Origin: Lachnospiraceae bacterium
Lineage (GTDB): Bacteria; Bacillota; Clostridia; Lachnospirales; Lachnospiraceae
Assembly (NCBI GenBank): GCA_017620375.1
Contig: JAFZQN010000056.1
Span: forward strand, 1-56,762
Length of the DNA: 56,762 bases
Direction of reading: 5' to 3'
Below are positions 38,407 to 55,807 of this stretch, piece after piece (position 1 is the first letter of the stretch; each line of letters starts with the position of its first letter). The position numbers and the translations under genes were made by a program. Under the pieces are notes generated by a model. It did no database searches, was not told the DNA's origin, and was given only the letters and a program-made list of their open reading frames with translations.

Positions 38407-38760
38407 ATGACAAATGTTAACTTAGGTGCGGTAGAAGAGAAGTTTGCTGATATCATATGGGAAAATGAGCCCTTGCATTCAAGGGACCTCGTCAGACTGT
38501 GCGATGAACAGCTCGACTGGAGAAAATCTACCACTTATACGGTATTAAAGAAGCTGTGCGACAGGGGGATATTCCAGAATGATAATGGGATGGTAAGCTC
38601 TAGGATATCAAAGGAGAAATTTATAAATATGCAGAGCACTCAGTTTGTGGAGAAAACCTTTAAGGGGTCGCTTCCTGCTTTCATAGCTGCCTTTACATCC
38701 GAAAACAAACTAAGCGAAAAGGATATTGAAGAGATCAAGAAAATGATAGGGGGTATCTGA
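38407..38760 (+). CDS. BlaI/MecI-family repressor (chromosomal pair)
   Basis: 117 residues. The winged helix (about 1-75) contains ADIIWENEPLHSRDLVRLCDEQ and WRKSTTYTVLKKLCDRG, matching BlaI and MecI. The C-terminal part (about 75-117) should give the dimer and contains the stretch that is cut by the partner protease in other systems. It is encoded one base upstream of the M56 gene. It should bind the three operators at 38284-38360 and control its own operon. Confidence 0.9.
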   Translation: MTNVNLGAVEEKFADIIWENEPLHSRDLVRLCDEQLDWRKSTTYTVLKKLCDRGIFQNDNGMVSSRISKEKFINMQSTQFVEKTFKGSLPAFIAAFTSENKLSEKDIEEIKKMIGGI

Positions 38761-38761
38761 T

Positions 38762-40597
38762 ATGGCAGATGTCTTTATGACAGTACTGAATATGAGTATA
38801 AGTGCCTGCGTGCTGATATGCCTTATCCTGCTCTTAAGAGCTGCTTCGGGAAAGGCTCCGAAGCGGATGCGCTGTTGTCTGTGGATACTTGTAGCTTTCC
38901 GCCTGATATGCCCGTTTGTTTTTGAAAGTGATATGAGCATCATACCGAAAAGCTGGCATGTTTCACTTACAGAAAAAAACAATGAGACGGTTTATGATGA
39001 GCCTGCATATTATGAACCGGGCGTTGCTTTGGAAAATGAGATTGATTCGGAAGATGAAGTAATCTCGGTACCGGATGTTATCCCGGCTATGCAAAGCGTT
39101 TCAGAAAATGTCAAAGCCCAAGAAGAGGATGCAGAAAGTTCTGACACCGAACCCGGTATCGCAGATGCTGTAAAACCTGCCTCAGATCACGTTTCCGGAT
39201 CAGAGCCTGCGTCTGCCCATAGGCTTAGTATGATACTTACTATTGTATGGCTTATCGGGCTGTGTGGCATGCTTGGGTATTATATTGTTAGCAGCATCAG
39301 TTTAAAGAAAAAACTTAAGACTGCTGTTCCGATACGTGTATTTGAAGAACAGCATGATATTGGATCAAAAAATAATATATATGTATCGGATGAAGTGAAA
39401 ACACCGTTTATACTTGGTATTATAAGGCCTAAGATATATCTTCCTTCTTCACTTGATATCAGAACTATGGAAAATGTTCTGGCTCATGAAAAAAAGCATT
39501 TGCACAGAAGGGATAACATATGGAAACTCTTAGGGTTTATGGTACTTTCTGTTCATTGGTTTAATCCGCTTGTATGGCTGTCATACTTTCTGTTTATCGG
39601 TGATGTTGAAGCAGCTTGTGACGAGGCTGTCATAAGCAACAAAACATCGGAAGAGATAAGAGAATATGCCACTGCATTACTTGAATGCAGCATACATAAG
39701 GAAAATCCGGTGTTTTGCTCACTTGCATTCGGGGAGGTTTCAGTGAAAAGAAGAATAAAGGATATAAGTGAGTATAAGAAACCCAGATTAAAAATTGGTA
39801 TAGCTTTAATAGTTATCGCAGCAATGATCACGGCATGTACCATGTCTGAGCCAACGGAAAGTGTTGACAATGCAGGGCAGGACCCTTCACAGACTGTGCT
39901 TGTAGCTAATGATGAACAGACTGGCGAACCCCAGATGGTGGTAGGTACAAAAGGTAATGATGACCAAGCTGGAGCACCCCAGATGGTGGTAGGTACAAAA
40001 GGTTATGATGAACAGACCGGCGAACCTCAGATAGTAGTAGGTACAAAACCGGCAGATGAATCAGAAAAGGTGCCGGAGGATAGCATATATAAAGCCATCC
40101 TGTATGGTGATGCCGAGTTTTATTGTTATGACAGCGGCACTTTACAAACGGTTACTATAAACGATGTACCGGCCTTGTTTAACAGCGATCCGTATTCAAG
40201 GATATACGAATATGCCGTTGTAGACCTTGACAGAGACGGGAATGATGAGGTGGTCCTGAATATAATTGCTACAGCAGGAGACGCGGGAGGCAAGCTGATA
40301 CTGCATCAGATAGACGATAAAGTATATGGCTACAAAACAGATTATAAGAGACTGCAATCCCTTAAAAAAGACGGTACATATGAGTTCCAGGGGTGGAGTC
40401 TGACATGGGATGGATTCGCACAGATCGCCGGGTTTGATGAATATAAGTTTACTGAAGATGTGTTCACCTACGAATCAGGCTCATATGAGGGAGCGGACAC
40501 ATATGTTGTAGATCATGTTACGTCTACTGAAGGTGCATTTGCCGATGCCAAATCGGCGCAATTTATGAAAACAAATACAGTTTGGAATAAATATTAA
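38762..40597 (+). CDS. BlaR1-like M56 metallopeptidase with repeat linker and outer domain
   Basis: 611 residues. Membrane segments lie near residues 8-27, 40-55, about 160-180 and 350-365. The zinc protease motif is LAHEKKHLHRRD (HExxH), followed by SYFLFIGDVEAACDEAVI, which provides the third ligand. After the last segment, which ends in ITACTM (lipoprotein-like), come three 16-residue repeats around PQMVVGTKG. An outer domain of about 170 residues follows, with a calcium-binding-like VDLDRDGNDEVVL. No penicillin-binding sensor is seen, so the signal differs from beta-lactams. It should cleave the BlaI partner upon an outside signal. Confidence 0.85.
   Translation: MADVFMTVLNMSISACVLICLILLLRAASGKAPKRMRCCLWILVAFRLICPFVFESDMSIIPKSWHVSLTEKNNETVYDEPAYYEPGVALENEIDSEDEVISVPDVIPAMQSVSENVKAQEEDAESSDTEPGIADAVKPASDHVSGSEPASAHRLSMILTIVWLIGLCGMLGYYIVSSISLKKKLKTAVPIRVFEEQHDIGSKNNIYVSDEVKTPFILGIIRPKIYLPSSLDIRTMENVLAHEKKHLHRRDNIWKLLGFMVLSVHWFNPLVWLSYFLFIGDVEAACDEAVISNKTSEEIREYATALLECSIHKENPVFCSLAFGEVSVKRRIKDISEYKKPRLKIGIALIVIAAMITACTMSEPTESVDNAGQDPSQTVLVANDEQTGEPQMVVGTKGNDDQAGAPQMVVGTKGYDEQTGEPQIVVGTKPADESEKVPEDSIYKAILYGDAEFYCYDSGTLQTVTINDVPALFNSDPYSRIYEYAVVDLDRDGNDEVVLNIIATAGDAGGKLILHQIDDKVYGYKTDYKRLQSLKKDGTYEFQGWSLTWDGFAQIAGFDEYKFTEDVFTYESGSYEGADTYVVDHVTSTEGAFADAKSAQFMKTNTVWNKY
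39911..40048 (+). repeat. Tandem 48-bp repeats in the M56 gene
   Basis: Units at 39911-39958, 39959-40006 and 40007-40048 (last one partial) encode the 16-residue pattern DEQTGEPQMVVGTKGN with few changes. It is a short outer linker whose length may vary between strains. Confidence 0.85.
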
Positions 40598-42662: not shown

Positions 42663-42666
42663 GTGA

Positions 42667-42690
42667 ACAGGGATAGCAGGATTCGAACCT
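42667..42690 (-). other. tRNA 3'-end fragment, presumed attachment site
   Basis: On the minus strand the 24 bases at 42690-42667 contain GGTTCGAATCCTGC followed by TATCCCTG: the T-loop, the 3' half of the T-stem and the 3' acceptor strand with discriminator of a tRNA. No 5' part follows, so this is a fragment only. Integrases often use tRNA 3' ends, leaving such a copy at the distal end of the element. The intact tRNA would then lie beyond the right edge. The tRNA type could not be assigned. Confidence 0.65.
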
Positions 42691-42927: not shown

Positions 42928-42956
42928 TTGACAATTATTCTATTAAGATGTATTAT
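42928..42956 (+). promoter_or_regulatory. Strong promoter of a structured RNA
   Basis: TTGACA (42928-42933), 17 bases and TATTAT (42951-42956). No ribosome site plus open frame of useful length follows within 230 bases. Confidence 0.7.
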
Positions 42957-42959
42957 ACA

Positions 42960-43195
42960 ATTGTAATGAGTAAGAAAGATTGCTCATGTTTTCGGAAGGG
43001 CGTGCCCTTTCGGATGCGGCTGACATCAGAATCTGTTTTTCCGTCCAGTTTATAGCTGGGCCGTCGGCAGGAGACACTAAACCCTGCACTTTTACCGAGA
43101 CTTGTTTTCGGTCGTTGGCAGACAACACTAAAATCAGTCATTAGGGGGATTGTGCCATACTAAGGTATGACCATATCCCCCTTAAATTTTTGTAA
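42960..43195 (+). ncRNA. Candidate structured RNA or attenuator leader
   Basis: The approximately 235-base transcript starts after a near-perfect promoter and ends in a complete intrinsic terminator (43147-43195). The terminator stem AGGGGGAT/ATCCCCCT holds an inner hairpin CCATAC-TAA-GGTATG and is followed by TTTTT. Inside are hairpins GAAGGGC/GCCCTTTC (about 42997-43013), GCAGG/CCTGC and ACCGA/TCGGT. Two similar units, GGCAGGAGACACTAAA and GGCAGACAACACTAAA, repeat. No matching known family was recalled. It may be an independent small RNA or a leader controlling the nuclease gene at 43209. Confidence 0.5.
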
Positions 43196-43208
43196 AGGTA
43201 GAAACCCT

Positions 43209-43862
43209 ATGGAAAAAATGTCAATAAATGAAGTAAGAAGCCTGCTTTTTAGATGTGCGAAGGAATACAAGATTAAGCTTTGTGACCGTCAGTTTTTAAT
43301 AATTTTTAAGAAGTCTTCTGAGAGCGATATATATGGTTTTTTTGAAGCAAAGTTTAAAGCTGGCAATTTTCAACATTTATCAGGGATAGAACACCCATCT
43401 GACAAAAAGAATATACAGAGTTCTGCTGGATTCTTCCGTAAATGCTATAGCAATAAGTTGAGTAATTCTGAGATAATATTTAAGAAAGATGGCACAACAA
43501 GGTTAAAACTTAAGGTTCTTCCCTATGCGATGGATTTCGTGAAACTTGCTAAAATGGTAGGAATACCTGATGATAAGACAGCAGAACTTGATGTTAGTTT
43601 TATGTCCGGAGGTATTAAATACTGTTTAGGATTTCGTAAGGATGAAGATTCTAATACATATATTCCAGTAACATTGTTAGACCGTGATATTAGGACTATA
43701 TGTACGGATACTTATCAGATTCTTGGAATTATGGAAAAAGCCTGTGGAGATCAAAATTCGTATAACAGAATACGCTATACAGCAAAAAATATAGATTTGA
43801 GGAAGCTGAATTTACCGGATGAGATAAAGAATAGGATACAACTATCAGAGAACAAAGATTAA
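43209..43862 (+). CDS. Putative PBECR4-type nuclease
   Basis: 217 residues from ATG 43209; the in-frame start at 43167 lies within the preceding terminator and is rejected. The pattern NFQHLSGIEHP (about 58-68), then FFRKCYSNKLSNSEI and the late NTYIPVTLLDRDI resembles the PBECR4 nuclease domain (phage-barnase-EndoU-colicin-RelE-like), found in mobile elements and usually toxic to other cells or phages. Identification is by pattern only. No neighbouring antitoxin is visible. No signal peptide, so it is likely cytoplasmic. Confidence 0.6.
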   Translation: MEKMSINEVRSLLFRCAKEYKIKLCDRQFLIIFKKSSESDIYGFFEAKFKAGNFQHLSGIEHPSDKKNIQSSAGFFRKCYSNKLSNSEIIFKKDGTTRLKLKVLPYAMDFVKLAKMVGIPDDKTAELDVSFMSGGIKYCLGFRKDEDSNTYIPVTLLDRDIRTICTDTYQILGIMEKACGDQNSYNRIRYTAKNIDLRKLNLPDEIKNRIQLSENKD

Positions 43863-44278: not shown

Positions 44279-44317
44279 GGCTGTTAATATCTTATGGTAT
44301 TAACAGCCCATTTTTTA
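44279..44317 (+). terminator. Intrinsic terminator
   Basis: A perfect 11-bp stem (GGCTGTTAATA / TATTAACAGCC) is followed by CATTTTTTA. Confidence 0.85.
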
Positions 44318-44485: not shown

Positions 44486-44514
44486 TTGACAGAATTCTTT
44501 GATGATGATATATT
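44486..44514 (+). promoter_or_regulatory. Promoter of the element's BlaI/M56 operon
   Basis: TTGACA (44486-44491), 17 bases and TATATT (44509-44514). It is identical in both hexamers and spacing to the promoter at 45878. Confidence 0.75.
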
Positions 44515-44519
44515 ATAGA

Positions 44520-44535
44520 GTGATACTGATATCAC
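44520..44535. promoter_or_regulatory. Operator GTGATA-N4-TATCAC (copy 1)
   Basis: GTGATACTGATATCAC is a perfect 6-4-6 dyad at the expected transcription start, in front of the element's BlaI gene. The same 6-4-6 dyad recurs at 45918. Confidence 0.75.
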
Positions 44536-44569
44536 CAATACATTATATATCGTCAAAGAGGTGTTAAGA

Positions 44570-44935
44570 ATGCAAATTACGGTTTCTGAATGGAAAATAA
44601 TTGACCTGTTATGGAAAAAACCCATGACCATCATGCAGCTTACCAAGGAGTTGCATGACGAGACTCAATGGACAAAATATACCATAATTGTTCTTCTGAA
44701 GAGGATGCTTGAAAAAAATACGGTACGCTATACTATGGAAGGAAGAACGAAATTGTTTTATCCAAATGTAAAGCGTGAAGACGCTGAGATTGAAGAATCT
44801 GAGGATCTTTTGAATAAGGTTTTCGACGGAAAAATTTCTCTTATGGTAAGTGCTCTTGCCAATAAGAACAAAATCAGTGATGAAGAGATAGATGCCTTAT
44901 GCAAGATGCTAAATCTTGAGAGATCCAAGAAATGA
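44570..44935 (+). CDS. BlaI/MecI-family repressor (element copy)
   Basis: 121 residues from ATG 44570; GAGG lies eight bases upstream, while the GTG at 44561 overlaps this ribosome site. The winged helix has ISVSEWKII-like ITVSEWKIIDLLWKKPMT and the recognition helix region WTKYTIIVLLKRMLEK. The C-terminal tail (about 80-121) should hold the cut site for the M56 partner. It differs clearly from the chromosomal copy at 38407, and its operator is different too. It probably controls its own operon and the secreted-protein cluster at 45983. Confidence 0.9.
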   Translation: MQITVSEWKIIDLLWKKPMTIMQLTKELHDETQWTKYTIIVLLKRMLEKNTVRYTMEGRTKLFYPNVKREDAEIEESEDLLNKVFDGKISLMVSALANKNKISDEEIDALCKMLNLERSKK

Positions 44936-44951
44936 CCGAAAGGAAAAAGAT

Positions 44952-45848
44952 ATGCTCGAGACATTGCTATCATCTACGATTCTTATAATTCTTATACTAT
45001 TGATAAGAGGGATTTTTTGCAAGCGTTTGAGCAGTAAGTACCTATATTCATTGTGGATCATACCTGCTGTCCGCCTTTTGATACTACCTATAATAGAACT
45101 TCCTGAAGGCTGGTCGCTTATATCTTTACTAATTAAGGCTCCAAGAAAGTTTAACCTCTTTGGACTTTATACTAATGAAGCAGAAGGGTTAAAGGTGATA
45201 GTTGATATAGGAATGTTTTTTAAGTCATGGGTAGCAATTCTGGTATGGTTTGTTGGGATGTTTACGGTTTTTCTCATCCATATAATTCCATATATACGGA
45301 CAAAGGCAAAACTTAAAAGAAACAGGAGTTTTATAGAAAGGTATCAAAATGACAGACTGAATATATATTCTTCAGATTTGGTAAATAGTCCTGTGCTCTA
45401 TGGATTTGATATATATATACCGACCGGAATGGTTGATGAAAAAAGAAACTATGCGCTGGCAGTCATGCATGAAAGATGTCATTTTCAGCAATGGGATGAA
45501 TTATGGAACTTAATGCGGGTAATATCCTCGTGTATTTACTGGTTTAATCCATTTGTATGGTTAGCTGTAGTCAGATCAAGAGACGATAGTGAGTATTCCT
45601 GCGATGAAGCAGTGATCAAAAATATGGACGAACATCAAAAAAAGGATTATTGTAGGTTGCTTATAGAGGTGGCAACAGGAGGGAGATTTGATAATAATTC
45701 ATTTCTTGAAGCAGGACTGACCAGATCTCCTGTATTTAAAAGAGTAGAGTTGATGCTGATGGAAAAGAAAAGAATGATATGGCTTAAGATAATCATATTT
45801 CTTTGTCTATTAATGGTTATGGCATTGACTCTAAATACGGCTGGATAA
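44952..45848 (+). CDS. M56-family metallopeptidase, short form (element copy)
   Basis: 298 residues from ATG 44952 (GAAAGG upstream). Four membrane segments, at about 5-20, 35-50, 85-105 and 275-292. The zinc protease motif is VMHERCHFQQWDE (HERCH), with YSCDEAVI providing the third ligand. It lacks any outer sensor domain after the last membrane segment, so it is much shorter than BlaR1 (about 600). The signal might be sensed in the membrane or by a partner. It follows its BlaI gene by 16 bases. Confidence 0.88.
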   Translation: MLETLLSSTILIILILLIRGIFCKRLSSKYLYSLWIIPAVRLLILPIIELPEGWSLISLLIKAPRKFNLFGLYTNEAEGLKVIVDIGMFFKSWVAILVWFVGMFTVFLIHIIPYIRTKAKLKRNRSFIERYQNDRLNIYSSDLVNSPVLYGFDIYIPTGMVDEKRNYALAVMHERCHFQQWDELWNLMRVISSCIYWFNPFVWLAVVRSRDDSEYSCDEAVIKNMDEHQKKDYCRLLIEVATGGRFDNNSFLEAGLTRSPVFKRVELMLMEKKRMIWLKIIIFLCLLMVMALTLNTAG

Positions 45849-45877
45849 AAGTCAGTTAGAAAAATTTTAAAATATAC

Positions 45878-45906
45878 TTGACAGAAAGAAAAACAGGTGA
45901 TATATT
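45878..45906 (+). promoter_or_regulatory. Promoter of the secreted-protein/ABC operon
   Basis: TTGACA (45878-45883), 17 bases and TATATT (45901-45906), matching the promoter at 44486 exactly in hexamers and spacer length. Confidence 0.8.
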
Positions 45907-45933
45907 TATTACTGCAAGTGATAGATGTATCAC
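45897..45933. promoter_or_regulatory. Operators GTGATA-N4-TATCAC (copies 2 and 3)
   Basis: GTGATATATTTATTAC at 45897-45912 matches the dyad at 11 of 12 bases and overlaps the -10 element. GTGATAGATGTATCAC at 45918-45933 is a perfect copy. They lie 21 bases apart, two helical turns. An outer ACAGGTGATA/TATCACCTGT repeat also spans the region. Confidence 0.75.
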
Positions 45934-45982
45934 CTGTTTCGTGCGCATGGAAACAAAACAATAATTTTACGGAGGTAAATCA

Positions 45983-46660
45983 ATGATTAAAAAACATTTA
46001 ATAGTTGCATCTATGGTTATCGTTAGCATTTGTTCTTGTTTAGTTGTTGGCAAAAACATGAATGCTGTGTTGGCCAAAGAAAACAATGGAATATCTTCTG
46101 GAGTTATAGCTTATGAGAAGGGAGACCCTGCATGGGCTGAGATTGTAAAGGAGCATGATATAGAATCGTTTGAAAACGATCCCTATGATGAGCTTACTTT
46201 GGATCTGGTAGATGATTCAGATTATTCAAAAGCTGAAGTTGAAATATACCGTGTAGGTGATGAAACATTTATTGCGCCTACTGTTGATCAGGATGCGGAA
46301 ATTAATCATCTTCAGGAAGTCAGGGGAAATAATATCCCTTCATTGTTCAAAGATTTGTCTCAAGGACCCTACAATTATTCTATTACCAACATGCAAAGCT
46401 ATGTATATACTAATAGATACTTTAATGTTAATTCTCAGGGTCAAATAATAATGAGTCTTAACTCTTTTAATTCGGGTGGACATAATATTACGATTAGATG
46501 TTGTGAAGTTGGCAGTAATTATGATGCACATGTTTTGACATTTAATCCTGAGCTTTATTCAGGAGTAACATGGCCAGGGCTTGACCAAAACAAGATGTAT
46601 TACTTCAAGTTTGAGATTAGCGGAGGCACATTGTCGGGGAGTGGTTCAATTTATCATTGA
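45983..46660 (+). CDS. Secreted protein of unknown function (225 residues)
   Basis: A signal peptide (about 1-31: basic MIKKH, hydrophobic VASMVIVSICSCLVV, cut likely at VLA-KE) is followed by an acidic stretch (about 45-90) and a beta-rich, Asn/Ser/Gly-rich C-terminal domain (about 115-225) with two adjacent Cys. TTACGGAGG lies before ATG 45983. It is the first gene under the operators at 45897-45933. Not recognised. The position before an ABC transporter suggests cargo, partner or a protective protein. Confidence 0.8.
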   Translation: MIKKHLIVASMVIVSICSCLVVGKNMNAVLAKENNGISSGVIAYEKGDPAWAEIVKEHDIESFENDPYDELTLDLVDDSDYSKAEVEIYRVGDETFIAPTVDQDAEINHLQEVRGNNIPSLFKDLSQGPYNYSITNMQSYVYTNRYFNVNSQGQIIMSLNSFNSGGHNITIRCCEVGSNYDAHVLTFNPELYSGVTWPGLDQNKMYYFKFEISGGTLSGSGSIYH

Positions 46661-46719
46661 TGTTATAGAACATGAAGATATTGAATGCAATTTTGATTTT
46701 ATGGAAGGAGAAACATAAA

Positions 46720-47127
46720 ATGTTAAAGAAGTTTTTAATATCATTTATAGTAATTCTTGCCTTTAGTGCTTCGGTTGCAGCTTCGGCTTACAATCCGGTG
46801 TCGGTAACTATTATCTCAAGTCAAAGCTCAGCAGACAGTTCAACGATTAGTTGTTCAAATTATATCGATTTTTATGGGGTTAATGACGCTTATTCAACGA
46901 ATGACCTCTATTGTGAACTGTATAATGACAACTGGGGACCGGATACACAGTACTATAGTACATTGCTTTCGCCGGGAACAGGAAGCATGTCTCAGGGGCA
47001 AGTAAGCAGCTGGCATAATATTTTTTACCAGAGAACCTTAGATAAGGAAAGGGATCTTTATGTTCATCTGGATCCTGCCGGTTGGAATTCTACCGGATGT
47101 CATGGCGCCGGGAAGCTTGTAGATTAA
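46720..47127 (+). CDS. Small secreted protein (135 residues)
   Basis: ATG 46720 is chosen because GGAAGGAG lies upstream. Signal peptide about 1-23, cut likely at ASA-YN. The mature protein is about 112 residues, rich in Ser, Tyr, Asn and Gly, with three Cys and no lipobox. The end (STGCHGAGKLVD) and the layout (small secreted beta-rich protein before an ABC transporter) recall DUF2712-type proteins of Bacillus, but the match is not strong. It lacks a double-glycine leader, so it is probably exported by Sec. It could be a bacteriocin-like or cell-envelope-acting peptide. Confidence 0.75.
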   Translation: MLKKFLISFIVILAFSASVAASAYNPVSVTIISSQSSADSSTISCSNYIDFYGVNDAYSTNDLYCELYNDNWGPDTQYYSTLLSPGTGSMSQGQVSSWHNIFYQRTLDKERDLYVHLDPAGWNSTGCHGAGKLVD

Positions 47128-47158
47128 TACTTGGATTTATTAATGTAGGTGAAAAGGG

Positions 47159-49261
47159 ATGACAGCTATAAAAAACATTTTACAGAAGAATTCTTTTATA
47201 GAGTGCTTATGCAGCGAAATGAAGTATCTTTTCAGGGGAAAAGGACTATTGTTAATTGTTTTAGCCTGGTTTATATTACTTGTACTTTTTTGCATGGCTG
47301 TCATCTCTGTACCTACACATATCGGGGACAGCTTTACTACTTCTGGGTGGGTTACGCAGATACTGATATTTGGTGGGATGTCAATAGGAGCTTTATTGGC
47401 ATCCAGGGATCATAGAAGCTGGTGTGAAGAAACTCTTATTGCTATTCCGAAGGTGTATAAGTGTAAAATGTTTTCCAGAATGCTTATTTTGTTAATTATT
47501 ACACTGGTTCTGGATATAACAGCTGTTTTATCTGTCTTTCTTGTTTTTTGGATCAAAGGGGCACCGGGGATATACTATTGGGGGTCTGCCGCATACATTA
47601 CACTTTACTGGACAAGTCCGTTTATGATTTCGGGAATGATGGGCCTCTTTTTGGGGCAGACAATGAGGTCAAAATTCATCTATGTTTTAATGGTTTTAAT
47701 CTCATTGATACTGGGACCTCTTATACCGCTTGCAGTAAGCAGCATGGCGCTTTCAGGCCATGGACAGCTTTTTGAGTATTATATGCTCTTTACTATAGGA
47801 CAGCTTGATCCGAACGGTGCAGTATATGAAGCATATGGGTATTCCTTGAACAATGAATTATGGCTGATGAGGTTTTTTCAGGTATCAGCAGTAGTTCTTT
47901 TACTTATTTATGCGTCTTTGAAGCACGATGGTAGAAGAAAAAAGGTTCTGAGAACATGCATGTGGATTGTTGCCATTTTTTTGTGGGGCTTTAGCGTATG
48001 GGGAACAAATCGGGTATCACATATACAGCTTGAACGGTATCGTTATAATGAACTGAACGAATATTATATAAATAACCCTGAAGTAAGTGGAACACTGACG
48101 GATAAAGACCATGTTACGGATGGGCAGGATGATGCTGGTCATCTGTATACTATAGAAGAATATAGGATAAATATTGATGATGGGAGCTGCCTTTACATTG
48201 AGACTGAGATTTCCTGTATATTTAACAATACCGATATAATAATTCTATCTTTGTTTCATGGTTTTGAAGTCAAAAACTGCAGTATTGATGGGATGAAAAT
48301 GCATTATGAACAGGTCGGGGATTCGGTTATAATCCATAATGACGGAATATATTCTGGAATACATTCTGTATTGATGGAGTATTCCGGTCTGCCACCGGCG
48401 AATTTGTATAAAGATGAGGATAAGTGGATCCTTCCCGCAGGCTTTGCATGGATACCTGTAGAACATATCGGTAAGGTCATGGAAAACGAAACCAATATAA
48501 ATGCATATTTCTCCTATCCGCGAAATAAAAAAGATGTTCCCATCAGCGTTAGATATAATGGAAATAATACAGTATACTGCAGCCTTAATGATATGGATGA
48601 AAACTACTGGACAGGATACAGTAGTGGTGCCACTCTTTTCTGTGGTTGGTTTGATTCCTTTAAGTATGGGTCTGCAGAGTTCATATATCCTGCCATGTGT
48701 CCGGAAAACCCGGATCATGCACAAGTATTTTATGACAGGATAAAAGAGAGTTATCCGGTAATTACGGAAGAACTTCTCGGTGAGAGGAGGATTCTTTTGG
48801 CTGATAAGGTGTTTATTACCGCAAGTCTTCTGTATCTTCACGCAGAAGGAAGATTGTTCATATATAACGATCATATAATAGCCTGCCTTACGGAAGACTA
48901 TACCGGAAGGGTGATTGAAAACATGAGCGGACTTGACACGGTGCGTGCAATAGTCCAGAGTCCCGGATGGGAAGCGATTGGACAGGATTATATTTATCTT
49001 TTCCTGGACGGATATATGGAAAGCATGTACAAAAGGGGAAAATACGTCTATAATGACTATGTTCCGTTAAGCAGGCTGATAAATAATGCGGAAGAAGCAG
49101 GAAACCTGGAACTGGCATATATATGTAAGGATATACAGAAACTGATAGATTCTGGTGATAATAATAAGCAGATATCATTTTTCAGGGATTACCTGGAACT
49201 GCTTAATGCTGGAACAATAGACGAGCAAGAGATAAAGAAAGTACTGGCTGTATATGATTAA
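47159..49261 (+). CDS. ABC-2-like permease with M1-peptidase-like outer domain
   Basis: 700 residues. The first 280 residues have about six membrane segments in the ABC-2 exporter layout (for example LLLIVLAWFILLVLFCMAVI at about 30-49). The remaining 400 residues are soluble and outside, with an arrangement like the N-terminal and thermolysin-like parts of M1 aminopeptidases fused to permeases: a beta sandwich with HSVLMEYSGLPP, and later LDGYMESMYKRG. The HExxH zinc motif is absent, so peptidase activity is unlikely. It starts 31 bases after the secreted protein gene. An ATPase gene follows. Confidence 0.8.
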   Translation: MTAIKNILQKNSFIECLCSEMKYLFRGKGLLLIVLAWFILLVLFCMAVISVPTHIGDSFTTSGWVTQILIFGGMSIGALLASRDHRSWCEETLIAIPKVYKCKMFSRMLILLIITLVLDITAVLSVFLVFWIKGAPGIYYWGSAAYITLYWTSPFMISGMMGLFLGQTMRSKFIYVLMVLISLILGPLIPLAVSSMALSGHGQLFEYYMLFTIGQLDPNGAVYEAYGYSLNNELWLMRFFQVSAVVLLLIYASLKHDGRRKKVLRTCMWIVAIFLWGFSVWGTNRVSHIQLERYRYNELNEYYINNPEVSGTLTDKDHVTDGQDDAGHLYTIEEYRINIDDGSCLYIETEISCIFNNTDIIILSLFHGFEVKNCSIDGMKMHYEQVGDSVIIHNDGIYSGIHSVLMEYSGLPPANLYKDEDKWILPAGFAWIPVEHIGKVMENETNINAYFSYPRNKKDVPISVRYNGNNTVYCSLNDMDENYWTGYSSGATLFCGWFDSFKYGSAEFIYPAMCPENPDHAQVFYDRIKESYPVITEELLGERRILLADKVFITASLLYLHAEGRLFIYNDHIIACLTEDYTGRVIENMSGLDTVRAIVQSPGWEAIGQDYIYLFLDGYMESMYKRGKYVYNDYVPLSRLINNAEEAGNLELAYICKDIQKLIDSGDNNKQISFFRDYLELLNAGTIDEQEIKKVLAVYD

Positions 49262-49282
49262 AAGGAGCAGAGTTGATATCCA

Positions 49283-50131
49283 ATGAAAATTCATGATGTA
49301 AGTAAAAACTATAGAAAGGTAAGGGCACTTGACAAGGTGAACATTACCTTTGGCGAAGGTGTACATGGTCTTTTGGGAGAAAACGGTGCCGGAAAGACTA
49401 CATTGATGAGGATAATCACGACTGTCATCGAGCAGGATTCGGGAACAATAGAACATAACGGAGTATCATGGAACGATAAGGAAGATGTTCGGAGGATGAT
49501 AGGATATCTTCCACAGAAATTTTCCATGTATAAACAGCTTACCGTAAGAGAGAGTCTTAGACATGTAGCAATACTGAAAGGAATGGAGAAAGGCTGGAAG
49601 CTGGCTGTAGACAATGCGATTGGATCAGTCAATTTGGAAGAAAAAGCCGACAGTAGAATTGGGGAACTTTCAGGGGGCATGGTCAGACGGCTTGGAATAG
49701 CCCAGGCGGTTTTAGGAAATCCTGAAATAATCGTGGTTGATGAACCGACGGCCGGTTTGGATCCGGAAGAACGAATGCGATTCAGGCTTCTGTTGAGGCA
49801 GCTTGGTGTGGGAAAAACTGTAATACTTTCTACACATATCGTGGATGATGTTGAAGCTGTCTGCGATAATCTGACGATCCTGCATAAAGGGAAAGTTGTC
49901 ATAACCGGCACTCCAAAAGAGATAAAATCAATGGCGGGAGGCAAAATCTGGAAGGCATCTGTATCTCGTGATGACTGTATGAAACTGGCTGAAAACAAAC
50001 TGATAACTGACCAGAAGATTGAAGACGGGGGTTATGATGTACGATTTGTATCGGATAATACTCCAGATATTAAGGCTGTACCTGCAGAACCCAGACTGGA
50101 AGAAGCATATATGTGGCTGATAAAAAGATGA
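49283..50131 (+). CDS. ABC transporter ATP-binding protein
   Basis: 282 residues. Walker A is GLLGENGAGKTTLMRII; the Q-loop is GYLPQKFSMY; the signature is LSGGMVRRLGIAQAVL; Walker B is IIVVDEPTAGLDPEE; the switch His is in STHIVDDVE. The C-terminal 70 residues form the small extra domain common in exporters. It should power the two permeases at 47159 and 50185. The gene follows the large permease by 21 bases. Confidence 0.9.
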   Translation: MKIHDVSKNYRKVRALDKVNITFGEGVHGLLGENGAGKTTLMRIITTVIEQDSGTIEHNGVSWNDKEDVRRMIGYLPQKFSMYKQLTVRESLRHVAILKGMEKGWKLAVDNAIGSVNLEEKADSRIGELSGGMVRRLGIAQAVLGNPEIIVVDEPTAGLDPEERMRFRLLLRQLGVGKTVILSTHIVDDVEAVCDNLTILHKGKVVITGTPKEIKSMAGGKIWKASVSRDDCMKLAENKLITDQKIEDGGYDVRFVSDNTPDIKAVPAEPRLEEAYMWLIKR

Positions 50132-50184
50132 GATTCTGATGTGAAAAACGGTTCTGAACCGAGGCGTGATAAAGGAAAGATGAT

Positions 50185-50871
50185 ATGAAAATGTGGTTGA
50201 AGCTTCTGTACTATGACCTTAAGGAAATGGGAATCGTTTTTTTGGTTCCTATAATAGTGGCATTTGGTGTGGCATCATATGGAATGTTCATTTATTGTGG
50301 AGCACCCATTGGTCAGGAATCTTCTGCTGCGGTTACGGTAATGAATCTTTTACAGAATTTTATCCCGCCAGTGTCTTCTTGGTGGATAATAATGGCTTTT
50401 CATAGGTATGCCGAAGAGGAGGGAACGGAAGCCTTTTTTACATATGGCATATCGAAAAAGAAAACCGGCATAGGACGGACTTTGATTTTCGTGGCGGTGA
50501 TGATTATGCTGATTTTTATCATCATGATTCCGATACACTTGATGGGAATTCTGAGAATAGAAACGGCTGTTATAGTATTTTTGGTTCTTTCTGTACAGTC
50601 ATTGTTGTATGGTAGCTGCGGTTTTTTGTTTATATTGTGGTTTAGAAATACTATCTGGAGCATAACAACTATATTGATAATTGCGTCACTTAATATATGG
50701 GGAAACATACCGGTAATAAGTAGGTATCTTTCAATTACGGTAAGGATGCAGGCACAAATGAGTCTGTCGGGGTTATGTTTGTATTTCCTTTTTATAATCG
50801 GTATTTCTGTAGTGATAAACTATAAAGGTCAAAAATTGTTTTTTGAATTGGGTACCCGAAAATACGGATAA
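50185..50871 (+). CDS. ABC transporter permease (228 residues)
   Basis: Six hydrophobic segments span nearly the whole chain (for example IVFLVPIIVAFGVASYGMFI, RTLIFVAVMIMLIFIIMIPI, LCLYFLFIIGISVVINY). No outer domain is seen. It is an ABC-2-like permease, the second membrane partner of the exporter, after the ATPase gene. AAAGGAAAG lies shortly before ATG 50185. The exported substrate is unknown; the secreted proteins of the same region are candidates, or the system acts as a protection transporter. Confidence 0.8.
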   Translation: MKMWLKLLYYDLKEMGIVFLVPIIVAFGVASYGMFIYCGAPIGQESSAAVTVMNLLQNFIPPVSSWWIIMAFHRYAEEEGTEAFFTYGISKKKTGIGRTLIFVAVMIMLIFIIMIPIHLMGILRIETAVIVFLVLSVQSLLYGSCGFLFILWFRNTIWSITTILIIASLNIWGNIPVISRYLSITVRMQAQMSLSGLCLYFLFIIGISVVINYKGQKLFFELGTRKYG

Positions 50872-51253
50872 TGATGAAACACATAAACGCGACGACAGTA
50901 AAGCTAATTGATGGGGATGATATAAAATGACGATTATACGATTTTGATTCTTTCGTCAAATGCTGAAAATACGACTGGTTGGTTTAGATTCTCTTGTAAT
51001 TCAAACAATAATTGTTTCTAAAATAGTATTTTCGCGATTACAGGGTATCCCAGAGACTTACTATATGGAAAAATGTATTACACATCTAGCTTAATAGTGA
51101 GTTGCACGACATATGATTTAAGTTATTATATTGATACAGGGTTAGGGTAAAGCAGTGCACGGCTTTTATATAACTCCTAAACATACCATGGAATGTTTGG
51201 ATATTTATTTAACTAATTAATGTTTAAATTATGTTCGAAAGGAGAAAATCAAT
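50872..51253. other. AT-rich gap without genes
   Basis: 382 bases without a credible open frame. A perfect dyad AAACAAT-A-ATTGTTT lies at 51003-51017. A weak promoter (TTGCAC 51102-51107 and TATATT 51127-51132, 19 bases apart) may drive the helveticin-like gene. No GTGATA-N4-TATCAC site was found here. Confidence 0.5.
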
Positions 51254-52606
51254 ATGAGAAAGAGTATAAGGCTTAAACTTTTTGTTAGTTTAGTTGCTGT
51301 TTCACTGATGTTTTGTTTTGTTAACGGGTCAATTGGGATTAACGCATCAACTGTCGAAACTTATATAAGCGAGGCTGAGTTCTATGAACAGGAAAAAATA
51401 AAAGCTGAAGAAGTAGGACTTATCATAGGAAATGGTGTAAAACTTGATGAAGTGTATGACGGGACTGAGGTAGTTGCAGAAAGAGAAGATTTTGAGACAA
51501 TAGAAAACTATAAGGCGTACCTTGAAAGAAGAGGATTACATTATGTTGAGAGTGAGTTTGATAAAGAATTAAACGCTTTAGAAGATGAAGATGCAGTTTT
51601 GACATCTATAATACCAGAAGCAGTATATACAGCAAATCTTACAACACAACAGAAACCGATACAGTCTTTTATGGTTGATGGTTCTAATATATACATTTCA
51701 CAAAGCTATAAAAGTTGGTATTTTTATGTTGACGGTGAATTAACTAATGTACCGGGTAATTATGTACTTATAAGCCGTTGTACTATTGCATCGGACAATT
51801 CGTTTTCACGTGCAGATGCTATGTTATTAAAAGATGTTGGACATGGAGAAACACTGGAAAAATATACTTATAATAATAACACGTATTTCTGGATATCCTG
51901 TGGTGCGAGCCAGATAAGTGAAGCTGATAGGGTTTGGTCTGTTCAAATGGGTAGAATACAATATGTAGGATATTCGATGACAGCACTTAAAAATCAGTCC
52001 AATTTGATAGATAATACACAAATCAAAAGACTGGTAGATCTTAGCTATTCCAATTCAAATGCCACTTCTTTTGGAACTATGAGAAGATCAAATTCAGCAA
52101 TTTCTTCCGATGGGCAGTATTTACTTATTTGGAAGCGTAGTACGAGTGGAACAAACCAGTTTTCTATATATGATTTTAGTACAATTAATTCTCAGTTATC
52201 CAGTGCTATAGGCAATACTGTTTCATTCTATGGAAATAATGTCCTAAAAAATGCATGTACAACATCGTATAATCAATCAGGGATGGCTGCATCAGTACAG
52301 GGAATAGATCTTTCTAATATTTCAGGCGGTTTACATTCGATTTATCAGTCATCGGGTAATGAAAATGACCCGGATAGTGGGGTTAATAAGATTCACAGAT
52401 TTAATTCTGCGGGAGTACATAAGAAAGAAGTCACGATTGATGATACAGGTTTGTGGACGGCTTATAACCAAAGTGCCACACATAATGCTATAGCAGAGAT
52501 AGAGGGAATGAAGATATCAGGTAGTTATTTGCTCTTTGTTATTCGTGATACAGAAAATTATGATAGGCAGGTTATTGCTAGAACATTAAAGAGTAATCTA
52601 TCATAA
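51254..52606 (+). CDS. Secreted helveticin-J-like protein
   Basis: 450 residues. Signal peptide about 1-31 (basic MRKSIRLK, hydrophobic LFVSLVAVSLMFCF, cut near INA-ST). An acidic, possibly helical stretch (about 32-105) follows. The rest (about 110-445) matches helveticin J-type class III bacteriocins in order and pattern: a late SNSAISSDGQYLLIWKRST, then FSIYDFSTINSQLS, ASVQGIDLSNISGG and INKIHRFN. These give a beta-propeller-like fold. AAAGGAG lies before ATG 51254. It could be a lytic or cell-surface-acting protein. The match was made from memory and needs a search. Confidence 0.7.
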   Translation: MRKSIRLKLFVSLVAVSLMFCFVNGSIGINASTVETYISEAEFYEQEKIKAEEVGLIIGNGVKLDEVYDGTEVVAEREDFETIENYKAYLERRGLHYVESEFDKELNALEDEDAVLTSIIPEAVYTANLTTQQKPIQSFMVDGSNIYISQSYKSWYFYVDGELTNVPGNYVLISRCTIASDNSFSRADAMLLKDVGHGETLEKYTYNNNTYFWISCGASQISEADRVWSVQMGRIQYVGYSMTALKNQSNLIDNTQIKRLVDLSYSNSNATSFGTMRRSNSAISSDGQYLLIWKRSTSGTNQFSIYDFSTINSQLSSAIGNTVSFYGNNVLKNACTTSYNQSGMAASVQGIDLSNISGGLHSIYQSSGNENDPDSGVNKIHRFNSAGVHKKEVTIDDTGLWTAYNQSATHNAIAEIEGMKISGSYLLFVIRDTENYDRQVIARTLKSNLS

Positions 52607-52643
52607 GGAATTATATCAAAAATGAAATTATTTAGGAGGTAAA

Positions 52644-53894
52644 ATGAGAAAGGGTATTTCAAAATGCTGTCTTTTTATATTGTACCTTATAAGCGGTATG
52701 TTGCTTCTGCCTTATATAAAGACGGAAGCAGTAGCAAACGAAATCGACACCTCTATGCTTAACAATGAAATGCAATGTGCTGTGGCTGTAAATGGTATAG
52801 AGTATGAAGGGGTGTTATATTTCACTCTGGACAATATCATGTATAGATTTACATCTGATATGGCAAAGGGTGGGGAAAAGGCAAAGATATATCTGAAAAA
52901 TGTTGATACCGATTCTGGTTTTTTTGTAAATGACGGATATATATATTTCAGAAAAGAGCTTACGCATTCTTTATACAGAGTAAGAGCGGGAGATACAAAA
53001 AAAGAGCTTGTGACAAAAGGTGTACACCGGATACTATATTATGATAAAAAGTACATTTATTTCTGGGGAAAAAAGTATCTATATAGTGTGCAGGTTGATG
53101 GAGAAGGCCTGAAATGTATGTACAGAAATAAGTGGAATTTTAAATCGGGAGAAAACTACAGTACAGCATACATTTATAATGGAAAACTTTTCTACAGTAA
53201 AGGTCTGAGTAAAGCATATGAAGGACTGGAATCACATGATCACAAATTGTGTGTTCAAGATCTTGAAAAGGGTTCTAAAAAAACACTATTAAATCCAAAG
53301 GGTTGTACAGGCTCCTTCTATTTCTTTGAATTAGAAGGTGAATTGTTTTCTCAATTTAGTGACTATGGGATGAAAACTAAAAAGATCTTTCATTATAATC
53401 GGGAAAATGAGTCATTTGAAGAAGTCGAAGGAGCGGATGGGGAGTTCTATGATTTCGTGGGCACAGATGGCAAATATCTGTACTCTGTATATGAATATTC
53501 AAAGGAATTAATGCTGGCGGATGAAAACATACCGGATAACGTTGGAACGAGCGGAGTATGGAAATTGTTTCGGACAGGAAGAAACTGGAAACAGGAATAT
53601 ATGTTTGATATAAACGTTGGTAAGGAACTTGCATACAGCAGTATTCAGTTTAAACAGAGAGAAGATGATTATTATGTTTTTAAGTATATTGACGAATTCT
53701 CTATATGTTATTGCGTGGATAGTAAAGGGAATATAGTATATTCTCAAAAGTTCAAAGCCGGTTCAAAGAAGAATATCCAGACTGATGCAGGGTCAGTAGA
53801 TATGATTATAAAGGATGGAAAATTATATACACTTAGTCATAGTCTTGGCTTATATGCAGACGTAAATATTAGAAAGCTCCTTTGTAGTGACTAA
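52644..53894 (+). CDS. Secreted beta-propeller-like protein
   Basis: 416 residues. A signal peptide (about 1-30: MRKG, CCLFILYLISGMLLL) is followed by repeated short strands with aromatic Tyr-Phe turns, for example DGYIYFRKELTHSLYRV, KKYIYFWGKKYLYSV and NGKLFYSKG, similar to DUF5050-type propellers. No catalytic motif is visible. TTAGGAGG lies before ATG 52644. The gene starts 37 bases after the helveticin-like gene, so the two may form a pair such as effector plus immunity or carrier. Confidence 0.7.
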   Translation: MRKGISKCCLFILYLISGMLLLPYIKTEAVANEIDTSMLNNEMQCAVAVNGIEYEGVLYFTLDNIMYRFTSDMAKGGEKAKIYLKNVDTDSGFFVNDGYIYFRKELTHSLYRVRAGDTKKELVTKGVHRILYYDKKYIYFWGKKYLYSVQVDGEGLKCMYRNKWNFKSGENYSTAYIYNGKLFYSKGLSKAYEGLESHDHKLCVQDLEKGSKKTLLNPKGCTGSFYFFELEGELFSQFSDYGMKTKKIFHYNRENESFEEVEGADGEFYDFVGTDGKYLYSVYEYSKELMLADENIPDNVGTSGVWKLFRTGRNWKQEYMFDINVGKELAYSSIQFKQREDDYYVFKYIDEFSICYCVDSKGNIVYSQKFKAGSKKNIQTDAGSVDMIIKDGKLYTLSHSLGLYADVNIRKLLCSD

Positions 53895-53917
53895 AGGTAA
53901 ATGTGCTTTTATAGTTG

Positions 53918-53949
53918 ATGAGCGCTATGCTATATGACATAGCGCTCAT
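53918..53949. terminator. Hairpin between convergent genes
   Basis: A perfect 12-bp stem (ATGAGCGCTATG / CATAGCGCTCAT) with an 8-base loop lies between the convergent propeller and relaxase genes. It is followed by an imperfect T-run (TGTTATTTGTT) and is likely a terminator for the plus strand. Confidence 0.65.
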
Positions 53950-54008
53950 TGTTATTTGTTCATGATAATTTGGGCGAGTATTTCATTTTGTCTACTGATA
54001 AACTTAAA

Positions 54009-55517
54009 TCATAGTTCATTTCTATCACGATAATCTTTTGGCTTTTTGAACTTTGAACCCGATATTTCTTTGTCGCTTCGTCCAAGAAACTTATTCATAC
54101 TGTCCTTCATCTCCCACAGCCGTTTATATTCCGCCTCTTTGGTTTTGTAAGAAGCGGTGTGAGCATCCTTATCGGCTATCATTTTTCTATATTGTTCTTC
54201 AAGCTGTCGGATGCTCAGAGTTGATGTGTCTACACCGGAGTTTTTGAGCCAACTTGACGCACCTTCAAACAGGCGGAGCTGGTAATCGTGGTCACGCTGG
54301 TACCTTTCCTTATCTCTGCCTTTTGCCTTTATATATTGTTTGTAATATTTCATGTTATCAACATACGTTTTAGCGTGATCAAGTATGCCTTTAAAGTTAC
54401 GGATTTCCTTTTCGAGATTGATTACAGCCTTCTTCTCTTTGTGAGCCTGGTCATGTAATTCATCGAGCTGTTCGTTGAAGCGTTCATCAAGGAAAACACA
54501 GCCCTGCAGTCCGAGATCTCCGAGTTCTTCATATATGGCTGCGGCACGTTTCAGGTTCTCTTTGTCCGCCCATTTTGTATAATAGTAGCTTTCAGCTATC
54601 TTTTCTTTTGAAGTATCTATAAGCTTGGTTTCCGTTGGTTTGTTACCGAGCATTTTGTCTATGCGTTTTTGGCTGTTATCATTGACAGAGCGGAGAAAAT
54701 CACGGATGCTCTTGGTGTTGAATACATGTGGCATCGGTACTGAATCCTGTTCCTGCATGCGGAGGTTTTCTTCAATCCTTTCGATGATCCGTTCCCTGGT
54801 ATAACCCTCTCCAAGAGAGTTCGCTCTTCCCCTTACAAAACGGTCCTTTTCTAATGGACGGAAAGAGATGTATTTGGCTGATCCGTCTTCCGGGTTTTCA
54901 CCCTTTATCTCATAGTTCCTGTTTTTTAACAAGCGCAGGAATTCTTCATATGAAGCAGCGATTGCGATGCATTCATCTATGTCTTTCTTTATTCGTGCTT
55001 TCCATGAATCACCTTTCTTTGTATGCTGCCACTCGCAGTAAGATTTCCCCTTACCGTTAAATTCTTTTATGACTGATTTGCCATGTTCGGCGCACAGCCT
55101 GTCGCTGACTTCGCGGATATGGTAGTAGGACTTTTTGCAGTCGTGATATTTGGTGTGGTCGGTGCTGCTTACAGCGCAGAATACTATGTGCGAATGAATG
55201 TGATCATGATCTACATGGGTTGCAAGCACATACGGAAATTTTCCTTCAAGTACTTCATCAGCAAGCTCCCTGCTTATACGGTGGGCTTCATCTTTTGTAA
55301 TCTCTCCGGGAGCAAATGACTGTATCAGATGATATGCCTTGTTGGGACCTCCTTCTCTGTTCATTGACACCAGGATATTAAACTCAAGATCGGCTGTTTC
55401 AGGAGCACATCCGAAAGAGGAAATAAGCAGCTTTTCTTCTGTCTTTTTTTCGTTACAGATATAACCTATTGCTTTGCCCACGGAAGCTTTGATAGCATGG
55501 ATCTTTGTAACTGCCAT
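54009..55517 (-). CDS. MOBP-type relaxase
   Basis: 502 residues. It nicks DNA at oriT and leads a strand into a recipient during mobilisation. The catalytic Tyr is in AIGYICNEKK near residue 18. The metal-binding motif HxDxxHxH appears as HVDHDHIHSH at about 101-110. The family patterns MNREGGPNKAYHLIQSF and ADEVLEGKFPYVLATH are present. The C-terminal half is a charged coiled coil (about 300-490). The ATG overlaps the MobC-like gene. No type IV secretion gene is visible here. Confidence 0.92.
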   Translation of the reverse strand: MAVTKIHAIKASVGKAIGYICNEKKTEEKLLISSFGCAPETADLEFNILVSMNREGGPNKAYHLIQSFAPGEITKDEAHRISRELADEVLEGKFPYVLATHVDHDHIHSHIVFCAVSSTDHTKYHDCKKSYYHIREVSDRLCAEHGKSVIKEFNGKGKSYCEWQHTKKGDSWKARIKKDIDECIAIAASYEEFLRLLKNRNYEIKGENPEDGSAKYISFRPLEKDRFVRGRANSLGEGYTRERIIERIEENLRMQEQDSVPMPHVFNTKSIRDFLRSVNDNSQKRIDKMLGNKPTETKLIDTSKEKIAESYYYTKWADKENLKRAAAIYEELGDLGLQGCVFLDERFNEQLDELHDQAHKEKKAVINLEKEIRNFKGILDHAKTYVDNMKYYKQYIKAKGRDKERYQRDHDYQLRLFEGASSWLKNSGVDTSTLSIRQLEEQYRKMIADKDAHTASYKTKEAEYKRLWEMKDSMNKFLGRSDKEISGSKFKKPKDYRDRNEL

Positions 55518-55807
55518 AACTTCTTCATCTCCTCCTTTACACCGTCGATGTCGGGCTGATAGATGCTCCTTGTCTCGTTTATCCTGTGGGCTATCTGGTT
55601 GATGTTCGAAGATATGTTGCTGAGCAGATAATTGTATCTGGTGAGCTCGGAAAAATCCACATCATAGACGTAGCCTCGGATGATCAGGCGGCGTATAAAT
55701 TCAGATCTGCTCTTTACGTTTGCAAGCTTGCATTTGTGGTTCAGATATTCAAGTTCTTCATCATTAAGGTATAGTAAGATACCGTTCTTTCGTTCTCTGT
55801 TTTCCAT
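55466..55807 (-). CDS. MobC-like relaxosome accessory protein
   Basis: 113 residues with an N-terminal ribbon-helix-helix-like region (about 10-55, LYLNDEELEYLNHKCKLANV and SRSEFIRRLII) and a C-terminal helix with NYLLSNISSNINQIAHRIN, the family signature of MobC/NikA-type proteins. It helps the relaxase recognise oriT. It overlaps the relaxase start by 52 bases. It is transcribed leftward from the oriT-like region. Confidence 0.88.
   Translation of the reverse strand: MENRERKNGILLYLNDEELEYLNHKCKLANVKSRSEFIRRLIIRGYVYDVDFSELTRYNYLLSNISSNINQIAHRINETRSIYQPDIDGVKEEMKKLWQLQRSMLSKLPWAKQ

Follow-up and report, generated by a model that had tools for sequence, protein, structure and literature searches.

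The window analysed here is the whole of contig C71 (JAFZQN010000056.1; 56,762 nucleotides) of a Lachnospiraceae bacterium whose assembly comprises 2.53 Mb in 152 contigs and is 86% complete. It contains nine genes, all on the + strand within 44486-53951, which look like one block and which we conclude are the cargo of an integrative mobilizable element inserted at a tRNA-Gln gene. In order, the block encodes a BlaI-type repressor, a short M56 protease, a 225-amino acid (aa) and a 135-aa secreted protein, a 700-aa permease, an ATPase of the ATP-binding cassette (ABC) type, a 228-aa permease, a helveticin-J-like protein and a 416-aa secreted protein. ("Secreted" refers, for proteins of the block, to N-terminal hydrophobic segments and not to the output of a signal-peptide program.) The 135-aa protein (referred to below as sec), the large permease, the ATPase and the second permease (p2) form a cassette that recurs at other loci, and one and the same palindrome lies at the promoter of the regulatory pair and at that of the operon behind it. 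What might such a unit do? We place close to an even chance on its being a switchable device for antagonism and self-protection; its activity, the immunity that it would confer and its inducing signal are all predicted from sequence.

The device would work as follows. At rest, BlaI dimers would occupy the GTGATA-N4-TATCAC sites that lie a short way past the -10 boxes of two promoters, P1 (blaI and the M56 gene) and P2 (the operon). On induction, the M56 protein, lacking the penicillin sensor of BlaR1, would be activated by an envelope change and would cut BlaI. The operon would then be expressed, supplying the signal-bearing 225-aa and 135-aa proteins and the three-gene ABC complex, and the helveticin-J-like and 416-aa proteins would be made through read-through or from a further promoter. 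The 135-aa and helveticin-like proteins may act on neighbouring cells or their walls, while the permease-ATPase-permease complex would keep the producer free of the 135-aa protein.

Features of the block are the following.

44279..44308, +, terminator-like hairpin before P1 (13-pair stem, T tail)
44486..44514, +, promoter match P1 of blaI-M56 (TTGACA-17-TATATT, 11/12 matches)
44520..44535, no strand, candidate operator O1 (GTGATA-N4-TATCAC)
44561..44935, +, BlaI/MecI/CopY-type repressor, 124 aa (PF03965 E=1.8e-23)
44952..45848, +, M56 membrane metalloprotease with HExxH (HERCH) and without a C-terminal sensor (PF05569 E=6.5e-36, residues 13-278 of 310; hydropathy; choice of start)
45878..45906, +, promoter match P2 of the operon, before the 225-aa gene (TTGACA-17-TATATT, 11/12 matches)
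45897..45912, no strand, further operator copy with 1 mismatch, overlapping the P2 -10 box, 21 bases upstream of O2
45918..45933, no strand, candidate operator O2 (GTGATA-N4-TATCAC)
45983..46660, +, 225-aa secreted protein with no family above cut-off in family scans
46720..47127, +, 135-aa secreted protein (sec) of the CxGxG family (37% identical to the sec protein of locus L052, E=9e-17 in a 12-sequence comparison)
47159..49261, +, 700-aa permease (family alignments A1, A3 and A7; profile surveys; hydropathy)
49283..50131, +, ABC ATPase, GldA/DrrA-like (PF00005 E=1.4e-29; TIGR03522 E=3.8e-58, below cut-off)
50185..50871, +, second permease p2, 228 aa (p2 profile; about 4 membrane segments)
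51254..52606, +, helveticin-J-like secreted protein, 450 aa (PF17312 E=4.9e-5; tblastn)
52644..53894, +, 416-aa secreted protein with no clear family (olfactomedin-like PF02191 E=0.0037, below cut-off)
53916..53951, +, terminator-like hairpin closing the unit (14-pair stem, T tail)

The block and its probable switch

The open reading frames, their + strand and their order are as an original prediction made from this sequence had them, and Pfam bears out the BlaI, M56 and ABC ATPase identities (PF03965, PF05569 and PF00005). The left boundary proposed there, 44486, coincides with the -35 box of P1. To judge from the bases preceding the starts, the M56 protein more likely begins at ATG 44952 (298 aa; the reading frame opens at 44916) and the 135-aa protein at ATG 46720.

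P1 and P2 are among the four best promoter matches (11/12) of the region, and the perfect palindrome AGTGATA-N4-TATCACC lies directly downstream of the -10 box of each. Its core, GTGATA-N4-TATCAC, has just these two occurrences in the assembled 2.53 Mb, where the reversed control pattern has none; the longer palindrome pattern, present twice in the window, appears in 0/100 shuffles. A repressor that controls its own gene and a single target operon would be expected to have this arrangement. Both P1 and P2 are likely to be under a BlaI-type switch, with BlaI the presumptive binder of the operator. Control of the unit by BlaI/M56, as originally proposed, thus stands as regards the shared operator, found nowhere else in the assembly, and remains presumptive as regards the protein that binds it. 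Names given to BlaI/M56 pairs commonly follow the beta-lactam systems to which they are related, and for some pairs no role has been assigned; this pair has a clear and checkable target in its two operator copies.

Might the block nevertheless be a beta-lactam response island, its BlaI/M56 pair sensing beta-lactams and its operon serving as resistance determinant? Both regulatory proteins are homologous to the beta-lactam pair, but the M56 protein lacks a penicillin-binding sensor, its chain stopping after the final membrane segment (its best score against BlaR1/MecR1 models, 81.7 bits, is far under the cut-off of 400), and no beta-lactamase or penicillin-binding protein (PBP2a/PBP) family was found among the proteins of the block that were scanned, just as the original prediction had said. 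This explanation is barely credible. In Staphylococcus aureus, according to the available text of the source, BlaR1 cleaves BlaI directly, at Asn101/Phe102, under the control of its outer sensor domain (PMC9834060). The M56 protein of the block has no sensor of the BlaR1 type, and the signal must therefore arrive in another way. An M56 relative at locus L053 has a DUF4825 domain in the sensor position (PF16107 E=6.6e-23).

The canonical BlaI/MecI site is TACA-N2-TGTA. As the operator at P1 and P2 it is rejected: no match with up to 1 mismatch is present at either promoter. At that stringency the window contains 33 copies, against 23.6 expected (3/100 shuffles reach 33). A little way into the element, ahead of a gene for a PBECR4 protein, a third strong promoter match (42928-42956) has a perfect TACA-N2-TGTA palindrome, TACAATTGTA, at its -10 box (42956-42965; one of two perfect copies), which is perhaps the site of another BlaI-type repressor. 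Two further pairs may be recorded. Outside the element, window 38407-40597 encodes a second BlaI (117 aa) and an M56 protein with an extra C-terminal part (611 aa), and no perfect copy of the block's operator lies near them. On another contig of the genome (L099:4081-6141; G000:C21), a BlaI-like protein and a short M56 protein (387 aa) are followed by a 153-aa secreted-looking protein without family, and there is no transporter.

How far does the unit extend? No terminator-like site was found on the + strand in the intergenic gaps of the block. Such sites number 13 in all against 7.3 expected, and single weak ones mean little; the hairpins at 44279-44308 and 53916-53951 have the longest stems on the + strand. 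A gap of 382 bases separates p2 from the helveticin-like gene, with no operator copy in it at up to 3 mismatches, and no accessory gene recurs at other loci: these facts suit a chance pile-up, in which only the four-gene core would belong together and the helveticin-like and 416-aa genes would have come along without any connection to it. Such an accident is nonetheless decidedly improbable: the gap has no terminator-like site and a long one follows the last gene, the strand is the same throughout, and the second helveticin-like gene of this genome also lies among secreted-looking genes. That gene (L098:1838-2989; G000:C21), whose product is 26% identical to the first, is followed by genes for secreted-looking proteins (one C39-peptidase-like), a protein that by eye resembles a sigma factor, and an ABC transporter of another type. 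The GC content falls from 0.44 directly ahead of the element to 0.34-0.41 across the block; host DNA at 36-39 kb also falls to 0.39.

By tblastn, the 450-aa protein has matches to proteins annotated as helveticin J on two plasmid records (E=8e-16 and 2e-11); the better one, on a Lentilactobacillus plasmid, covers residues 171-430 with 28.8% identity. The likeness to helveticin J originally proposed therefore holds by homology, but not by Pfam score, which is under the cut-off; the helveticin J profile matched 1/190 genomes of the family (the bacterium's own), at two places, both under the cut-off. The "propeller-like" description of the product of 52644-53894 comes down to the weak olfactomedin-like match already listed.

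The recurring cassette and its changing company

The small secreted proteins of the cassette constitute a family. A hidden Markov model (HMM) built from four other members finds the 135-aa protein at E=1e-14 (database size set to 1000), and the residues common to seven aligned members (alignment A9) include a G, an N, three L and a C-terminal C-x-G-x-G. Scans of 7 sec proteins against Pfam and NCBIfam gave no match above cut-off, only weak signal-region ones (such as Phr_nterm E=0.0015 in one). All 14 aligned sec proteins have a signal-like N-terminal stretch, by eye, and so need no dedicated exporter. For that reason the ABC genes need not encode the exporter that the original prediction saw in them: protection is as likely as export. 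A further explanation does without killing and has the complex export the 135-aa protein, or assemble it, for use at the surface or in signalling. It can point to the tight adjacency of the genes and to the large C-terminal part of the permease, of which the sec product could be the ligand; set against these are the signal-like N-termini and the occurrence of the transporter without a sec match, and we consider it improbable.

The 700-aa permease has its membrane segments within residues 31-281, followed by a C-terminal part of about 410 aa. It has no match in Pfam, NCBIfam or PHROG above cut-off or with E<0.01, and no PDB sequence match with E<0.02; the cassette thus adds two protein families without a match above cut-off in scans of this kind. 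The ABC-2 Pfam models do not match it, and match some of its relatives (the ABC2_membrane models) below cut-off only. An origin of the C-terminal part from an M1 peptidase was considered on the strength of a weak match in one distant member (Peptidase_M1_N E=0.033) and left as a lead; HExxH is absent from the 7 permeases checked. The ATPase is related to GldA, DrrA and lantibiotic-protection models, all under cut-off.

With the window permease as sole query, no relative was found in the genome contigs, and a single-sequence search of the family gave 5/299 genomes, among them G204, which the profile did not confirm. On plasmids, tblastn found five Bacillaceae records with 20.5-25.6% identity over 34-80% of the query; the four that were opened each have a small hypothetical protein and an ATPase gene beside the permease, and a p2 match. 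A profile of ten permeases (A3) found the family in 12/398 genomes of a phylum sample, the bacterium's own included, and the same profile found it in 1/392 of an order sample, again its own; at most 3 candidates per genome were scored in these two samples, and the counts may be low. An alignment of the closer subfamily, one genome per species, gave ten loci, including Fictibacillus, Paludifilum, Saccharibacillus, Paraliobacillus and metagenome-assembled Clostridia, two of the ten being repeats. In sum there are 28 distinct loci. Besides the window, 4 lie on plasmids and 4 belong to the same family, while the phylum sample supplied 11 and the scan of named genomes 8. (L063 and L066 repeat L053 and L052 and are counted once; G204 was dropped, and so were G276 and G111, matched at E 1e-4 by a 151-aa query, in which the matches lie inside larger reading frames, with no cassette.) All frames of at least 30 codons in these loci, 7529 in 472,797 bases, were searched with HMMs.

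Permease, ATPase and p2 genes follow one another on one strand at 22/28 loci, the window included (among them L011, with a sec gene in between, and L068, with a broken permease). Six loci depart from this: in L015 an extra gene intervenes, L016 and L062 have no p2 match, L017 and L019 run into contig ends, and in L061 the ATPase comes first. An HMM from ten p2 proteins matches at 24/28, those ten included. A sec gene adjoins the permease gene at 14/28 loci (window, L008, L009, L010, L011, L015, L052, L055, L056, L057, L064, L065, L069 and L071); L010 has two divergent copies, L015 has two, and in L064 the frame is broken at its start. At seven later plasmid loci the three transporter genes are together in 7/7 and a weak sec match lies directly upstream in 2/7 (6e-4 and 1.5e-6). 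No other sec match (E<=1e-3) is present in the 552 kb of the 28 + 7 loci. That the sec models cross-match (L069 is found by sets A and B, L057 by all three) suggests one family, and two of the matches, L064 (7e-33) and L069 (5e-20), are outside any model. The recurring cassette accordingly consists of the 135-aa protein, permease, ATPase and p2. The original expectation that the gene set is conserved together is upheld for this four-gene core, but not for BlaI/M56 or for the 225-aa, helveticin-like and 416-aa proteins, which are local additions.

The company that the cassette keeps changes from locus to locus. A sigma-70-type factor is encoded nearby at 8/28 loci (by annotation at L009, L010 and L011; by Pfam at L055, L057, L060, L070 and L071), with an anti-sigma factor at five of the eight, either annotated or recognised by sigma-regulator domains (L009, L010, L011; L070, L071). 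Not counted are L017, where an M56 match lies about 4 kb from the permease and BlaI has no match, and L008, where an annotated sigma factor lies about 2 kb upstream. A phospholipase-A2-like protein is found within about 5 kb of the cassette at six Bacillaceae loci (L008, L009, L011, L071, L089 and L090), and on four Bacillaceae plasmids such a protein, with the motif CCxxHDxCY, abuts it (L008:11187-11927, L011:10803-11561, L089:3370-4116 and L090:8177-8956); the four of these proteins that were scanned have Pfam scores below cut-off. At L057:7448-7918 a DUF6147 secreted protein (E=2.1e-5) is encoded between the sigma-factor gene and the cassette. In L015 (G268:C7:86000-105000) the secreted protein and permease are present in two tandem copies, each followed by a 700-aa protein, of which the one scanned matches solute-binding-protein families.

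Several of these observations, and some on the switch, count against antagonism with self-protection. 1) No sec match is present at 14/28 and 5/7 loci (204 bases before the permease were available for the search at L053); these loci fit resistance, and a plain resistance pump would account for them equally well. 2) The three sec models were built largely from the same loci, and their matches are largely by construction. 3) The correlation of sec with permease distances (Mantel-type test, 14 pairs; rho 0.53, p 0.0006) may reflect species descent only. 4) BlaI and M56 stand beside the cassette at just 2/28 loci, the window and L053, and HMM search found nothing related to the 225-aa, helveticin-like and 416-aa proteins at any of the 27 other loci; the helveticin J score (PF17312) is 23.2 bits, under the curated cut-off of 25.5. 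5) Promoter-like matches overall are no commoner than in shuffles (43 against 48.7), and the operator of the block is unlike TACA-N2-TGTA, of which a perfect copy falls instead on the third promoter match (42956). 6) At L053 (= L063), two canonical-looking ACTACATATGTA copies stand ahead of blaI, and no dyad was found in the 204 bases before the permease, so that control of the transporter there is a candidate only. Since the sites at the window and at L063 differ, the two repressors may read different sequences.

The first of these points is also an argument for defence, that is, for a three-gene ABC complex that clears foreign envelope-active compounds, with the small secreted proteins as decoys or as binding or delivery proteins and BlaI/M56 or a sigma factor as sensor of damage. 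Sigma factors or BlaI/M56 beside the transporter at 10/28 loci, the relatives of the ATPase and the protein that follows each L015 permease point the same way. Defence leaves unexplained the helveticin-like gene on the same strand with no intervening terminator, and also the phospholipase-A2-like neighbours. The set-A sec model, moreover, matched 5/398 genomes of the phylum sample, all five among the 12 that have the permease: all five supplied members of the model (which would not reliably find the Bacillaceae and L015 sec types), and the informative part is that no permease-less genome scored, for which a dedicated pair is a better fit than a general pump. Defence is in our estimation unlikely, if well short of negligible.

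Antagonism with self-protection can be combined with the distribution of the cassette in a broader and more tentative proposal, to which we give distinctly less than an even chance: an undescribed class of mobile antagonism modules across Bacillota. Each would pair a member of a new secreted family (about 100 residues when mature, with a CxGxG end in the window's subgroup) with its own three-gene ABC complex, the C-terminal part of about 410 residues of the permease capturing the protein; effector companions (helveticin-like, phospholipase-A2-like) and control (BlaI with sensor-less M56, or sigma/anti-sigma) would be swapped, M56 here reading a signal other than a beta-lactam through a BlaI operator of new sequence. 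The cassette allows a simple question to be put: does the transporter protect against the protein encoded beside it?

The mobile element

The features that mark the element in the window are these.

42665..42690, -, 26-base copy (25/26 matching) of the 3' end of tRNA-Gln(CUG), the end of the element (attachment site, att); matches L076:8039-8064
54009..55517, -, MobA/VirD2-type relaxase (PF03432 E=3.1e-37)
55466..55807, -, MobC/NikA-like accessory protein (PF05713 E=1.2e-8)

An exact 20-mer of the att copy occurs just twice in the assembly, once here and once where the true tRNA-Gln ends on contig C135 (L076:7990-8062). About 95 bases past that tRNA gene is a gene for a tyrosine integrase (PF00589 E=4.2e-18), which reaches the end of the contig. 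The orientations are consistent, with tRNA and integrase at one end and the copy, beside a methionyl-tRNA synthetase gene, at the other; on the window side the element comprises the PBECR4 protein, the block, the relaxase (relatives of which are found in 587 plasmid records) and the MobC protein. It is because of the tRNA-Gln end copy, the integrase, the fitting orientations and the relaxase with MobC that the block is taken to be cargo: a relaxase and its accessory protein, with an integrase and an att duplication at a tRNA gene, point to an element that is integrative and mobilizable, and the mobility and adjoining mobilisation genes of the original prediction are thereby upheld. The two ends are on different contigs, each of which stops before the element does; that C71 and C135 hold the two ends of one copy is the probable arrangement. 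In the one genome of the same genus that was searched for an empty insertion site, the flanking gene had no counterpart at the DNA level.

Just within the element end, window 43167-43862 encodes the PBECR4 protein, which is nuclease-like (PF18813 E=5.4e-24). A phage origin was rejected: a related permease had no match among phage records, and the patterns of the window permease had none among viral contigs.

Comparison with known systems

No description of this gene set was found by title or abstract start in the open-licence literature, in keeping with the original statement that none was known. Parts of it have counterparts. As in BlaR1/BlaI and MecR1/MecI, genes for a repressor and an M56 protein adjoin, and an operator precedes that of the repressor; the differences are the missing sensor domain, another palindrome, and targets that are secreted proteins and a transporter. 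The Clostridioides difficile plasmid NZ_CP103978.1 (L084; 6 kb, four annotated genes) likewise has BlaI followed by a short sensor-less M56 protein (282 aa), there with no obvious target; the annotation of the plasmid shows neither ABC genes nor genes for secreted proteins. The significance for beta-lactam resistance of BlaR1/BlaI genes on extrachromosomal elements of C. difficile is called currently unknown in the available text of one source (PMC6807378).

With the helveticin J family (class III bacteriocins) the likeness is the homology of residues 171-430 of the 450-aa protein; the differences are the score below the Pfam cut-off and the link, here, to an ABC cassette and BlaI/M56. Lantibiotic self-protection of the LanFEG type is laid out as one ATPase with two permeases. 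The block shares this layout, and its ATPase matches TIGR03740 (E=2.7e-44), but with 151.5 bits against a cut-off of 309.75, and its large permease has the C-terminal part of about 410 aa besides. Anti-phage defence was rejected, no PADLOC family being matched except by ATPase-type matches of the ABC ATPase.

In layout the unit resembles the lactococcin 972 operons (lcn972-orf2-orf3 on pBL1 and scbABC of pneumococcus), where, so far as the available text of the two sources goes, the B and C products are presumed to provide immunity and transport (PMC11796350, PMC4055356). Those operons too encode a small secreted protein, then a large membrane protein (of 648 aa, as against 700 aa in the window) and then an ABC ATPase, and are plasmid-borne or inducibly controlled (PMC4055356, PMC11796350), and the order of bacteriocin, large membrane protein and ATPase genes in the window is the same as in pBL1. 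The bacteriocin-like layout of the original prediction, with sec beside the permease, is supported to that extent. The profile comparisons join the points counted above against antagonism: the sec alignment (A9) gives an hhalign probability of 0.8% over 10 columns with Lcn972 of pBL1, and the permease alignment (A7) one of 0.9% with the bacteriocin-associated integral membrane protein. Membership of the lactococcin 972 family is rejected on these grounds for the secreted and membrane proteins, there being no homology apart from the generic ATPase. Lipid II binding and septum inhibition are further traits of that family. The membrane segments, moreover, are confined here to the first 285 residues, whereas the 648-aa protein has them at the N-terminus, in the middle and at the C-terminus, and the second permease and the BlaI/M56 or sigma-factor neighbours are additional. 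With the same order and no homology, the unit is therefore not a member and at best works like the lactococcin 972 system. The swapping of companions and regulators around a secreted protein and its transporter fits antagonism with self-protection, laid out as lactococcin 972 is.

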